DNA of 33,905 bases, taken from NCBI GenBank assembly GCA_023259115.1, contig JAHFQW010000017.1:1-33905 (forward strand), written 5' to 3'. The DNA is from an archaeon. Lineage in GTDB: Archaea; Nanobdellota; Nanobdellia; Woesearchaeales; GW2011-AR9. Within the stretch, counting starts at the first letter, position 1. Every line of letters starts with the position of its first letter. Made by a program: the position numbers and the translations under genes. Shown piece after piece: positions 4,681-28,714 of the stretch. The notes below the pieces were generated by a model. It was not told the DNA's origin, did not search any database, and saw only the letters and a program-made list of their open reading frames with translations.

Positions 4681-4873
4681 TATAGAGGAATTTGAATAAA
4701 TCCTATATTATAGAGGACTTTGAATAACCCCTATATTCATCAATATAATAAACCGCAGTTTATTTATTAGATAACTGTGTCAAATATTATATCTTCTACA
4801 CAATTATCTATATTCAAAGTACTTCTTAGAGGGGTTTGACAATTTTTATAGGGTTAATCAAACCCCTCTATAG
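4681..4873. repeat. TATAGAGG-family structured intergenic element, with partial tandem copy of its edge
   Basis: TATAGAGGAATTTGAATAAATCC (4681-4703) and TATAGAGGACTTTGAATAACCCC (4710-4732); stem ACTTTGAATA (4717-4726)/TATTCAAAGT (4811-4820); stem AGAGGGGTTTGA (4828-4839)/TCAAACCCCTCT (4858-4869). Confidence 0.8.
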
Positions 4874-7439: not shown

Positions 7440-7493
7440 AAATGTGTAGAGTTTGACAAACAAGGATAGTTATTCAAACTCCTCTATACTTCT
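7440..7493 (-). repeat. Single-hairpin copy of the TATAGAGGAnTTTGAATAA element, overlapping the 3' end of the deacetylase CDS
   Basis: Minus strand TATAGAGGAGTTTGAATAACTATCCTTGTTTGTCAAACTCT; GAGTTTGA/TCAAACTC stem; gives codons TAT AGA GGA GTT TGA (...YRGV*). Confidence 0.7.
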
Positions 7494-8781
7494 CAATAGT
7501 CAACCCTTTCCCGGTAATATCTTTGCATAAAGGGTCTAAAAATTGACTAATTGTTCGAGGAAATTCATGGATTAATACAATATCTCCATTGCGTACAGAA
7601 GAGACCTGTTGAATAACCGATGAAATGGTTGCTTCTTTCTTCCAATCGTTAGTATCTTTCGACCAGAACATAATCTGATAACCACGTTGTTTAATTCCTC
7701 CATACACTTCTACACGCTCAAAAAATGTCGGACGATCACCATAAGGAAAACGTAATAGTTTAACAGAGCGTTGAACTCCTGCATTTTTGTACAACCAATC
7801 AATTAATGTATCAGTTTTATCTATTTCATTTAAAATCTCTTGACTGGATAACACCGAAAACGGCCGATGAGTATAAGAATGATTACCTATCATAAATCCA
7901 CTCCGAACACAATCTACAAGTATCATTCTATATTCATCATCACGTAATGCCTCTTCAAGACGTTGTCCTACCCAGAAAAAAATTGCTCCATATCTATGTT
8001 CAGTCAAATAATCAAGCATTGTTTTCAAATTTGCTTTTCGCTCTTCTAAATCAAATCTTTTTTTCCCCTGTATAAATGGACCATCGTCAATGGTTAAAAA
8101 CACTCCTTGAACCGGCAATTTGTAGATTTCATTTGACCCAAAGATATGTTTATCAAATAACCCACTTCCTCTATGAAACGCTTTTGTTTTTCGTTCAAAT
8201 TCCATCGTTGCCGCAGCCGCACCCATAACCAAAGCACTTTTCAAGAAATCTCTGCGCGTCATGCCTGTTTTTAGTGTGGGAATTCTTCTTAAAACTGCAT
8301 CAAGCATGGCAAGCCATTTCTCCAAATCCTCAATTTCTAATTTTTGATTTTTAATTTCCTGTGTTATTTTTGATTGGTATGCCTTATTTCTCTGTTTTCT
8401 TTCAGCCGCAATGAGTACTCTTGTTCTATCTACTCTTTCACGAAGCGCACCAAGATATTTTGATCCATTCTTCAACAATTGAGCGGCAGGAACTTCTAGT
8501 TGTTGTAATAACTCAGGTAATGGCACCAAAGAAATTTTTCCGTCCCCTTGTTGTAATTCTCTACGTATCCTTTCTAAGTCTCGTTGTACAACCCGTTCGG
8601 CATTTCCAATATAATGTATGACCCGTATATTTTTTTGTAAATCTTTTTCTTGTTCAGAAATATCTTCTCTCTCAATTTTTTCTAAATCTTTATGCAATTG
8701 TTCTAAGAAATAATATTCTGCCGCCAGCCATTTTAGGACATGTTCAACATCTTTGGTTATTTCTTCTACCACTCTATCCAC
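7474..8781 (-). CDS. NodB-type polysaccharide deacetylase with internal twin-arginine motif and coiled-coil N-terminal region
   Basis: FLTIDDGPF, GNHSYTHRPF, LLRFPYGDRP, DIVLIHEF motifs; internal MTRRDFLKSALVMGAAAA. Confidence 0.8.
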   Translation of the reverse strand: MDRVVEEITKDVEHVLKWLAAEYYFLEQLHKDLEKIEREDISEQEKDLQKNIRVIHYIGNAERVVQRDLERIRRELQQGDGKISLVPLPELLQQLEVPAAQLLKNGSKYLGALRERVDRTRVLIAAERKQRNKAYQSKITQEIKNQKLEIEDLEKWLAMLDAVLRRIPTLKTGMTRRDFLKSALVMGAAAATMEFERKTKAFHRGSGLFDKHIFGSNEIYKLPVQGVFLTIDDGPFIQGKKRFDLEERKANLKTMLDYLTEHRYGAIFFWVGQRLEEALRDDEYRMILVDCVRSGFMIGNHSYTHRPFSVLSSQEILNEIDKTDTLIDWLYKNAGVQRSVKLLRFPYGDRPTFFERVEVYGGIKQRGYQIMFWSKDTNDWKKEATISSVIQQVSSVRNGDIVLIHEFPRTISQFLDPLCKDITGKGLTIEKYRGV

Positions 8782-22654: not shown

Positions 22655-23665
22655 ATGACTATACCAATTAACGTAGAAAAAGTAAACTTACCCGAAGGAT
22701 TTCAAGTTACTAAAAGAGTTGAGAAAGAAACTCTCCATTTTGAATTTACTTTACCCATCGCTCTACCCTATGATAATGGGAGTTTAAATACGTATAGAGA
22801 AAATGTTCAAGGCCCTAGTCACTGGGATAGAGGTTTTCTTTATAGTGATTTAACCAAATTGACCTATGAAGTTATGCAAGCTACACTTCCCGAATTTACC
22901 GGTGGCAATGGTTTTTATCAAGCAAGATTTAATGCTTCTGATCTGTATGGTCTGGGTATAATGGAAGAGGGGCATTTATACCTTACCCATTCAATCGATG
23001 ATCAACCAAGAGGAGAATTAAAATTAAGCGTTCATAGTGCTGGAAAGTTCATTCCTGTTCTAACTGAAAGTGGGGTTGAAAGACCAACCATTGATAGAGT
23101 AACCATGCAAGGAAAAATATATCTTGATACAAAGATTCCTTTTCCTACTAAAGAAAGCTATACTACATATAACGCGGAGATTAGTGCAGCAATAATTGCA
23201 TCTCTTGCACACAATCAACCACTAACCTTAGAAAAAAATCAGCTGGTAAGAAGCGGTTATGAAACAATTTCAGGATCAGAAGTATATATACAGATTGATA
23301 ATCCTACCCTAGAGAGGATGCAAGCTGCATTATTAGAAGAGAGAATTCTTGCCAAATATTTTGCACAACATTTAGAACCAATAACAGAAGCAGCTAGAAT
23401 TTTCGGTGAAGCTCAAATAGTAGACCGCAATTACAAACAAGAAGTTGTTTCTGCCCATAGTACATTAGTTGGTCAAGTGAACAGAGCGAAAAAAGAGGTA
23501 GATTCTCAAATTCCTCTTCCCGCAAATATCGATGCCCTAATTGCTCAAATAGACCTAAATATTAATGCAAAGTTACAAGAAGCAACAGGGAAAATTGCTC
23601 ACTTATCCACCGGATTTCCCCGAGGGTTTCTGACCTATGCCACTGCAGAAAATAGTAAAAGATAA
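22655..23665 (+). CDS. Hypothetical protein, 336 aa
   Basis: Clear SD-like GGAGG ~10 nt upstream of ATG; no recognised family. Confidence 0.75.
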   Translation: MTIPINVEKVNLPEGFQVTKRVEKETLHFEFTLPIALPYDNGSLNTYRENVQGPSHWDRGFLYSDLTKLTYEVMQATLPEFTGGNGFYQARFNASDLYGLGIMEEGHLYLTHSIDDQPRGELKLSVHSAGKFIPVLTESGVERPTIDRVTMQGKIYLDTKIPFPTKESYTTYNAEISAAIIASLAHNQPLTLEKNQLVRSGYETISGSEVYIQIDNPTLERMQAALLEERILAKYFAQHLEPITEAARIFGEAQIVDRNYKQEVVSAHSTLVGQVNRAKKEVDSQIPLPANIDALIAQIDLNINAKLQEATGKIAHLSTGFPRGFLTYATAENSKR

Positions 23666-24527
23666 AAGTATTTATTCTGTCCTATTTGATTTTTGTCAAG
23701 AGCATAACTTTTGGATTGATAGGAATAGATTGTATCATGCTTTAGGAAAAATAGTTTTTTCTCAAGGAGAAATATATACTCTTGAGGAACTTAATGTTCC
23801 CATTCAAAAGTATAAGCTTATCCCCCTTGCTCTCTCAAAAAAAGATGTAGTGCCCAATAATCTCACACCAAACGATTTAACAATATTAACCCCTGAAGAG
23901 ATCGCCTCCATTTCAAAATTAAAAGGAAATGAGGTGGAATATATTGCCTTGAACACCCATATATTTCCCATCTTAGGTAATGACTACTGGGAAAATTGGA
24001 ACGCTCTAGATCAACATGACGGCCATCAAGAAATTTATAAAAAAATATTGACCACCATTAATCATTGTATTAGGAAAAAAAGTAAGATAGTAGTCCTTGG
24101 TTGTGGCACAGGAGAATTTCTGGATGTCTTAACAGAGCAAGGCTATCAAGCAATAGGAATAGACTCAAATAACACCAATGTACACCTTGCTCTATCCCAA
24201 GGGCGTACTGTTATCCAAAAAAGAATAGACGAAATTACATTCGATCACCCCGTTGATCTTGTTCTAGATCCCGGCGTTCTTAGTGCCGCAGTGGTGGAAA
24301 GAGCGTATGTAGCACAAGTGCTTCCAAAAATATCCGCCATGATAAAACCAGATGGATATTTCATTCATGCGCCTTTCTCGCGAAGTTTGTTTTCCTCAGA
24401 AGATTTAAGCCGTTCTGGATTCATCGTTTGCAATATGACTATCCCTCAAAATCTATTTGGATACGAGCGGCCACAACAGTTTTATGTTGCCCAAAAAACA
24501 AACGTTCCTCACACTTACAATCTATAG
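23637..24527 (+). CDS. Class I SAM-dependent methyltransferase
   Basis: SKIVVLGCGTGEFLDVLTEQGYQAIGIDSNN (motif I / post I); overlaps the preceding ORF. Confidence 0.7.
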   Translation: MPLQKIVKDKSIYSVLFDFCQEHNFWIDRNRLYHALGKIVFSQGEIYTLEELNVPIQKYKLIPLALSKKDVVPNNLTPNDLTILTPEEIASISKLKGNEVEYIALNTHIFPILGNDYWENWNALDQHDGHQEIYKKILTTINHCIRKKSKIVVLGCGTGEFLDVLTEQGYQAIGIDSNNTNVHLALSQGRTVIQKRIDEITFDHPVDLVLDPGVLSAAVVERAYVAQVLPKISAMIKPDGYFIHAPFSRSLFSSEDLSRSGFIVCNMTIPQNLFGYERPQQFYVAQKTNVPHTYNL

Positions 24528-24776
24528 AGGACTTTGAATAACCATATCTTTCAACGATTATTCAAAGTATACCAAAGGCACTAATTAATTCCAAAAATAG
24601 TTAGTGCCTTTGTATATACCAGAAAATAAGAAACACTTATTTTCTGTACAGAAAACAAATCGTTGTTTGTTTTCTTGTACAACGAACATAACTATTTTAA
24701 TTAAAAATTAGGTTCGTTGGTATACTTCTTAGAAAGTTTTGATAATTTATATGGTTATTCAAAACTTTCTATAACC
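24523..24776. repeat. TATAGAGG-family structured element containing a nested multi-hairpin module
   Basis: Stems 24531-24541/24558-24568; 24566-24575/24717-24726 (outer arms of nested module); 24573-24584/24601-24612; 24620-24630/24636-24646; 24651-24659/24666-24674; 24680-24687/24712-24719; 24731-24742/24759-24770. Confidence 0.85.
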
Positions 24777-24825: not shown

Positions 24826-25275
24826 ATGTCATCACCAACCAAAAAAATATCGCAACAAGAAAAAATCCAGACGCTTCTCAAAAGCAATACCCTTATGGTT
24901 CTCTCCACCACAAACTCCCGTAATCAAAGCCAAAGCGCACTCGTTGCGTTCACCCAAACAGAAAACTTCGAAATAATCTTTGGTACATTTTGCACAACTA
25001 GAAAATATGCTAACTTGAAATGCAACCCTTCCGTCTCAATCGTTATCGGCTTAGACGAACGGCTCAACAAAACCATCCAAATAGAAGGAACAGCACAAGA
25101 AGCAGCAACACTACTCCAAGCCAAAGAATGGCAATCTCTCCAACTCAAAAAAAATCCAGCTTCAAAAAAATATGCTTCTCACCAACACCAACGCTATTTC
25201 AAAATCACACCCGCCTGGATGCGTTATTCCGATTTTTCCAAAACAACAGAAGAGATATTTGAAGTACATTTCTAA
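24826..25275 (+). CDS. Pyridoxamine 5'-phosphate oxidase-like flavin-binding protein
   Basis: NTLMVLSTTNSRNQSQSALVAF...NLKCNPSVSIVIG...YFKITPAWMRYSDF. Confidence 0.75.
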   Translation: MSSPTKKISQQEKIQTLLKSNTLMVLSTTNSRNQSQSALVAFTQTENFEIIFGTFCTTRKYANLKCNPSVSIVIGLDERLNKTIQIEGTAQEAATLLQAKEWQSLQLKKNPASKKYASHQHQRYFKITPAWMRYSDFSKTTEEIFEVHF

Positions 25276-28031: not shown

Positions 28032-28622
28032 ATGTTTGATTACAAAATCGCTCTTGGTATTACTGCGGTCATTATGGGAATTCTAAGTTACATCCCCTAT
28101 TTTCGTGACGTATTCACAGGAAAAACCAAACCTCACGCATTTACCTGGTTTGTCTGGTCACTATTAACTGCTATTGCTTTTTTTGCTCAACTCATTGAAC
28201 ATGCTGGCGCAGGTGCATGGGTCACCGCAACAACCTCTCTATTTTGCTTCATCGTATTCTTATTTGCATTAGTCAGAGGCCATAAAGACTTCCCTATTGT
28301 AGATTGGCTTTGTTTGGCCTCAGCACTATTCTCCTTGGCACTCTGGTTTTTCACAAAAAATCCCCTTGTCGCAATCATTCTTATAACTCTCACCGATGCC
28401 ATAGCGTTCATACCTACATTTCGTAAAAGCTTCTCCCATCCTTGGGAAGAAACAATTATGTTATATGCCATTGCCGCAATAAAATTTGCCCTTGGTCTAT
28501 TCGCATTAGAAACAATAAATCTAACCACCTATCTCTATCCCGCATCTTTAGTCATTATGAACTCTCTATTTACCCTAACTCTTTTCATTCGCCGTAAACA
28601 GCTCAAAAGAAAATCTGTATAG
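28032..28622 (+). CDS. Multi-pass membrane protein with PQ-loop-like repeats
   Basis: SYIPYFRDVFTGKTKPHAFTWFVW and AFIPTFRKSFSHPWEET in a ~7-TM protein. Confidence 0.7.
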   Translation: MFDYKIALGITAVIMGILSYIPYFRDVFTGKTKPHAFTWFVWSLLTAIAFFAQLIEHAGAGAWVTATTSLFCFIVFLFALVRGHKDFPIVDWLCLASALFSLALWFFTKNPLVAIILITLTDAIAFIPTFRKSFSHPWEETIMLYAIAAIKFALGLFALETINLTTYLYPASLVIMNSLFTLTLFIRRKQLKRKSV

Positions 28623-28714
28623 ATGAGTTTGAATAACCTTATTTTTCATCAACATTCAAACTCATTCTTAGAGAAGTTTGACTAAAAATATGAATTAATC
28701 AAACTTCTCTATAG
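28618..28714. repeat. Compact (minimal) copy of the TATAGAGG-family two-hairpin element
   Basis: ATGAGTTTGAAT (28623-28634)/ATTCAAACTCAT (28654-28665); linker TCTT; AGAGAAGTTTGA (28670-28681)/TCAAACTTCTCT (28699-28710). Confidence 0.85.

Follow-up and report, generated by a model that had tools for sequence, protein, structure and literature searches.

The window discussed here, contig C40 of our genome G000, is a stretch of 33,905 nucleotides from an archaeon of the order Woesearchaeales; the assembly (1.57 Mb in 54 contigs) is 96% complete, and archaeal small- and large-subunit rRNA genes lie at the end of this contig. Between an open reading frame (ORF) with a methyltransferase domain (23637-24527) and a PNPOx-like ORF (24826-25275) lies an element of six hairpins, 24523-24773, which we call A(B(C)). 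Folded as DNA, it has a minimum free energy of -55.9 kcal/mol, against -17.5 +/- 3.1 kcal/mol for 200 dinucleotide shuffles (z = -12.6; 0/200 as low). A sequence-only reading had described a multi-stem intergenic element here (24523-24776), with two outer hairpins like those of a compact element further along the window, and with an inner module bounded by 10-bp arms (AGTATACCAA/TTGGTATACT) and by TA on both sides; all of this was borne out, the compact copy (28618-28713) having no hairpins but the outer pair (z = -6.8). Mobile elements are nested here one inside another. On balance we favour reading the block as three levels of non-autonomous mobile hairpin elements, with the complement of the target dinucleotide written into the centres of B and C. 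The parts of the element are as follows.

24523..24773, forward strand: whole nested element A(B(C)), TATAGAGG...TTTCTATA
24523..24541, forward strand: left terminal repeat of A, TATAGAGGACTTTGAATAA
24532..24567, forward strand: hairpin 1 of A (A1), from DNA folding
24568..24569, forward strand: TA to the left of B, first copy of its duplicated target
24570..24722, forward strand: element B with C inside, TACCAA...TTGTA-TA-TACAA...TTGGTA
24570..24614, forward strand: hairpin 1 of B (B1)
24615..24616, forward strand: central dinucleotide of B, TA, the reverse complement of the flanking TA
24617..24618, forward strand: TA to the left of C, first copy of its duplicated target
24619..24677, forward strand: element C, whose left end reads CCAG here and CAAG in other copies
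24619..24646, forward strand: hairpin 1 of C (C1)
24647..24648, forward strand: central dinucleotide of C, TA, the reverse complement of its flank
24649..24677, forward strand: hairpin 2 of C (C2)
24678..24722, forward strand: hairpin 2 of B (B2); the right TA copy around C is 24678-24679
24723..24724, forward strand: TA to the right of B, second copy of its duplicated target
24731..24770, forward strand: hairpin 2 of A (A2); the right terminal repeat runs to 24773

The general plan of A is TATAGAGGAC..hairpin..GTCCTTCTTAGAGG..hairpin..CCTCTATA, that of B is TACCAA..hairpin..TTGTA-NN'-TACAA..hairpin..TTGGTA and that of C is CAAGAAA..hairpin..TTTCTG-NN'-CAGAAA..hairpin..TTTCTTG. In both B and C the inner arm is one base shorter than the outer, which leaves a bulged base near each hairpin foot, and the loops of the C hairpins are, by eye, alike and oriented (AAACTA, CAACGA, AGAATA and similar).

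BLAST against the organism's own genome returned several near full-length copies of the whole element, at 91-94% identity, and many partial ones, so that the second copies and the conservation on which the sequence-only reading depended are both in evidence. The short end pattern of A, TATAGANNNNTTTGA, matches the genome 118 times, against 2 matches for a reversed control. Copies of A that lack B read AAAGTACTTCTT (at the position of the left TA) or AAAGTCCTTCTT, while those that hold it read AAAGTA[B]TACTTCTT or AAAGTC[B]TCCTTCTT; copies of A(B) without C lie at L094:2007-2197, L099:10035-10225 and L112:2076-2265. The search for empty sites thus found, within one genome, both A without B and A with B but without C. 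The earlier proposal, of a non-coding mobile module set inside another, is upheld in its nesting by these empty and partly filled copies, but the single inserted block that it described is in fact B, with C in turn inside B. C sits at the centre of B, and B in turn close to the middle of A.

At least 36 copies of A are present in this genome, the number being a lower bound because the inventory was drawn from stretches fetched around copies (~327 kb including the window). It comprises 14 plain copies and the compact copy in the window, three of A+B, seven of A+B+C and one of A+B+C+D, together with six of A+D, three of A+G, one of A+B+G and one of A+B+D, D and G being further modules. Contigs C20, C32, C42 and C47 of G000 have ends that coincide with A(B(C)) copies or lie close to them, which suggests that these repeats probably break the assembly and that copy number is underestimated.

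Comparison of filled with empty sites defines the target duplication of C. A C-type copy in module G of L109 reads TTTATT-TA-[C]-TA-TTAGAT, against the empty TTTATTTATTAGAT. In other pairs, C at L211:952 (TG) has an empty counterpart in L245 and C at L189:5026 (CA) has one in L200, each over 50/50 identical nt; L173:2644 (CA) is matched by L220 over 42/42 nt, and L163 (CG) by L181 at 90% identity. Because these empty sites, resolved to a single base, hold the dinucleotide once, C duplicates 2 bp, and the dinucleotide is arbitrary: CA/TG, TA, CG, AG/CT, AA/TT, TC/GA and others are duplicated by C relatives. B is flanked by TA and by TC/GA, the latter in our genome and in another genus. C favours fold-prone target DNA, its joined flanks folding at -18.4 kcal/mol against -11.6 kcal/mol for control positions at the same loci (P = 8e-9). 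One C copy, at L195:781, has TT flanks and an AA centre and apparently occupies the loop of a different C hairpin. A chain of three hairpins at G017:C2:234146-234227 (u1-AT-hairpin-CA-hairpin) suggests that hairpins can be added singly.

Searching a public genome collection for the C pattern returned at least 106 stretches; the matches listed, among which the following counts were made, come nearly all from Woesearchaeota, Nanoarchaeota, Pacearchaeota and other archaeal bins, including one Altiarchaeales genome. In 183 of 210 distinct hairpin units the two bases just outside the outer foot and the two just inside the inner foot are reverse complements of each other. We reduced the test to 45 independent C insertion sites, from which matches in Aquimarina and Halomonas, two bacterial ones that look like chance, were excluded. 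The centre is the complement of both flanks at 33/45 of these sites; the right flank matches the centre at 36/45, where permutation gives 9.4 and 0/20000 permutations were as high. Of the 33 sites with a non-palindromic centre, 27 carry its complement at the right flank and 0 carry a direct copy of it there. B obeys the same rule, in that a TC flank goes with a GA centre and a TA flank with a TA centre.

Identical hairpins at independent sites (units of 29 nt, in one case 24 nt) bear on whether this central dinucleotide is written at each insertion or inherited. Such units share their dinucleotide in 5/26 independent pairs, against a permutation mean of 5.03 (P = 0.57); they agree no more than chance would have them, which favours writing over inheritance, a conclusion that we regard as about evenly balanced. 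It is unlikely that hairpins were corrected afterwards from their outer arms, since this would have erased the retained bulge too. In L174 and L153 the same nested C (centre TG) is seen with outer flanks, not clean ones, of TA/TA and CG/CG respectively; both flanks have shifted together and the nested centre is unchanged.

We propose a mode of transposition in DPANN archaea by which the complement of the target dinucleotide would be copied into the middle of the element each time, with hairpin ends joined singly and filled in; we put this forward tentatively, at slightly short of an even chance. A, B and C are each a double hairpin, of which B and C duplicate two target bases in the arrangement NN-u1-N'N'-rc(u2)-NN, with stems extending two base pairs into the target. 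We infer that a trans-acting enzyme would join hairpin-form ends to both strands of a 2-nt staggered cut, that each hairpin would then prime 2-nt copying of the overhang, and that the two ends would be sealed via their common complementary dinucleotide. The unit joined would be the single hairpin rather than the whole double hairpin. If the centre is indeed written in this way, each copy records its landing site, the chemistry is tightly constrained (hairpin-form ends, a 2-nt stagger and fill-in) and a new enzyme is pointed to, in very small archaeal genomes from which the common transposases looked for are missing. A centre complementary to the target would, if the reading holds, set these elements apart from the usual ways in which DNA moves: we know of no transposon that stores the complement of duplicated target bases within itself, and we found nothing on such elements in DPANN in the open-licence literature.

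Several results weigh against this account. The complement rule is broken in 27/210 hairpin units. Departures counted by position (centre 7, left 4, right 5) are spread about equally, as expected from mutation after insertion. In our own genome the sites are TA for nearly all C and most B, so that complement and copy are indistinguishable there and the rule depends on relatives and on B at TC/GA. The test of non-inheritance consists of 26 pairs, which could be blurred by exchange of hairpins among copies or by convergent hairpins; hairpin combinations do re-assort between double hairpins in genome G060. Element A differs from B and C, in that filled TATA[..]TATA stands against two paralogous empty sites reading TATA and TACA (L131:3914-4010 compared with L133, L127 and L101; L105:6833-7002 compared with L101), and A may duplicate four bases or leave an excision footprint. 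Finally, no matches to DDE_3 (PF13358), Y1_Tnp, Transposase_20 or DDE_Tnp_1 were found in our genome, in its 96% complete assembly, and no gene-bearing C element was seen: among the hairpin units listed for five genomes, which for G000 were a part of the whole, no pair lay around an ORF.

The complement rule might instead reflect DNA-guided targeting, as in IS200/IS605 and REP/BIME (repetitive extragenic palindromes and bacterial interspersed mosaic elements), with the centre as an inherited guide, one for two hairpins, whose pairing to the dinucleotide of cleavage and target would let the element enter matching sites only. For IS608, guide-target pairing and predictable retargeting are established (PMC5934647); for TnpAREP, a guide tetranucleotide selects the cleavage dinucleotide and an irregular hairpin stem can be needed (PMC8266576); and REPINs are likewise double hairpins (PMC3116915). 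Our elements resemble REP/BIME/REPIN (TnpAREP/RAYT) and IS200/IS605 ends in their paired short hairpins, in their irregular stems and in a target dinucleotide complementary to a hairpin-foot motif (PMC8266576, PMC5934647, PMC3116915), and the one-base bulge near the foot of the C hairpins, the pairing of the centre with both flanks and the complementarity to a hairpin-foot guide in those 183 of 210 units all speak for a guide. However, by eye there is no GTAG-type guide at the feet of the C hairpins, the duplication lies on both sides, and a single centre, apparently not inherited, serves two hairpins. The chance-level agreement of identical hairpins (small sample) and the absence of Y1_Tnp from our genome and from many C-rich ones (G016, G017, G030, G075 and G077) also leave an inherited guide, in our judgement, unlikely. 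Were it nevertheless to hold, the elements would represent a minimal DNA-guided transposon in archaea.

IS630-type transposases use TA, and miniature inverted-repeat transposable elements (MITEs) derived from IS630/Tc1-mariner include Correia/NEMIS and RUP. An IS630/mariner-like origin was part of the sequence-only reading, and ordinary MITEs of this kind could have nested by chance at TA, the match of centre and flank then following from the self-complementarity of TA. Our elements share with such MITEs that they are short, non-coding, TA-associated and scattered between genes, with inverted terminal repeats, and in our genome every junction of the focal element has TA. Sister genera carry ~1.1-kb IS630-type transposons with DDE_3 (L139, L140, L146) and ends TATAGATAACTGCG/TATAGATAATTCTG; these ends are shared by module G of our genome (TATAGATAACTG(T/C)G), so that some nested modules, G among them, are IS630-derived, and the TATAGA ends of A are similar to them. 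But our genome has no DDE_3; C in relatives duplicates CA/TG, CG, AG/CT, AA/TT and TC/GA with matching centres; B uses TC/GA in our genome and in another genus; and double hairpins in B and C, arbitrary 2-bp duplications, a target-complementary centre and three-level nesting are all unlike these MITEs. We therefore consider this explanation of the whole block improbable: it is contradicted for B and C, and is possible for A and G. We give very little weight to an immobile structure, a conserved regulatory RNA or a transcription end. Its very strong folding would suit such a role, as would the position of the A ends, every classified one of which is intergenic by a simple ORF count, with a neighbouring gene's stop codon within the first 20 bases of the repeat in 19/79. 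Yet whole inserted modules, with exact target duplications, distinguish the copies; an Rfam scan of the window matched rRNAs only, with nothing at the position of the element; and presence is patchy, C occurring in 22/49 genomes of its own family and in 0/47 genomes of other families in the order. Small palindromes that are inserted into one another or that form two hairpins are also found in plant nested MITEs and fungal mitochondrial double-hairpin elements, which belong to another domain of life and for which, to our knowledge, a target-complementary centre is not known.

Known transposases were considered as the mover. The Y1 HUH transposase (PF01797), absent from our genome and the five C-rich genomes named above, was rejected as its presence across genomes is not tied to C; Y1 loci, inspected for C-end motifs only, showed no paired C-type hairpins. 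An IS110-type transposase (PF02371) was rejected too, being absent from 11/12 C-bearing genomes including our own, as was DDE_Tnp_1, absent from our own and most C-rich genomes. An IS630 transposase that moves all modules was likewise set aside, given the lack of DDE_3 in our genome and the non-TA dinucleotides used by C and B.

A viral contig collection scanned with the C pattern gave no match. In L181, a record named Candidatus Nomurabacteria (a bacterial bin), there is a C element nearly identical to archaeal copies, which would reflect either a mis-binned contig or transfer between domains.

These elements shape their host genomes, through intergenic copies, stop codons for neighbouring genes and apparent assembly breaks. 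The left repeat of A at 24523..24541 carries a stop codon in each of the three forward frames and provides the stop of the methyltransferase ORF, which ends at 24527. Other copies in the window are these.

28618..28713, forward strand: compact A copy (~97 bp) without B or C; provides the TAG stop of the upstream ORF, which ends at 28622
4709..4872, forward strand: A copy whose hairpin 1 holds module G (~4746-4810) in its loop, between duplicated TAs
4681..4699, forward strand: solo left end of A immediately ahead of the 4709 copy
7466..7488, reverse strand: solo left end of A; ORF 7474-8781 on the minus strand takes its TGA stop from it

Module D (GTAAAAATCAC..GTGATTTTTAC, followed by one more hairpin) lies in the loop of A hairpin 2, with no clear 2-bp duplication, in L093, L101, L105, L113, L123, L127, L130 and L133, and it seems to follow another insertion rule. 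Modules E (TACTAAAAGCAC..) and F (CACAAAATGTG..), found in L019, L023, L025, L026 and L029, pair with B hairpins or occupy their loops.
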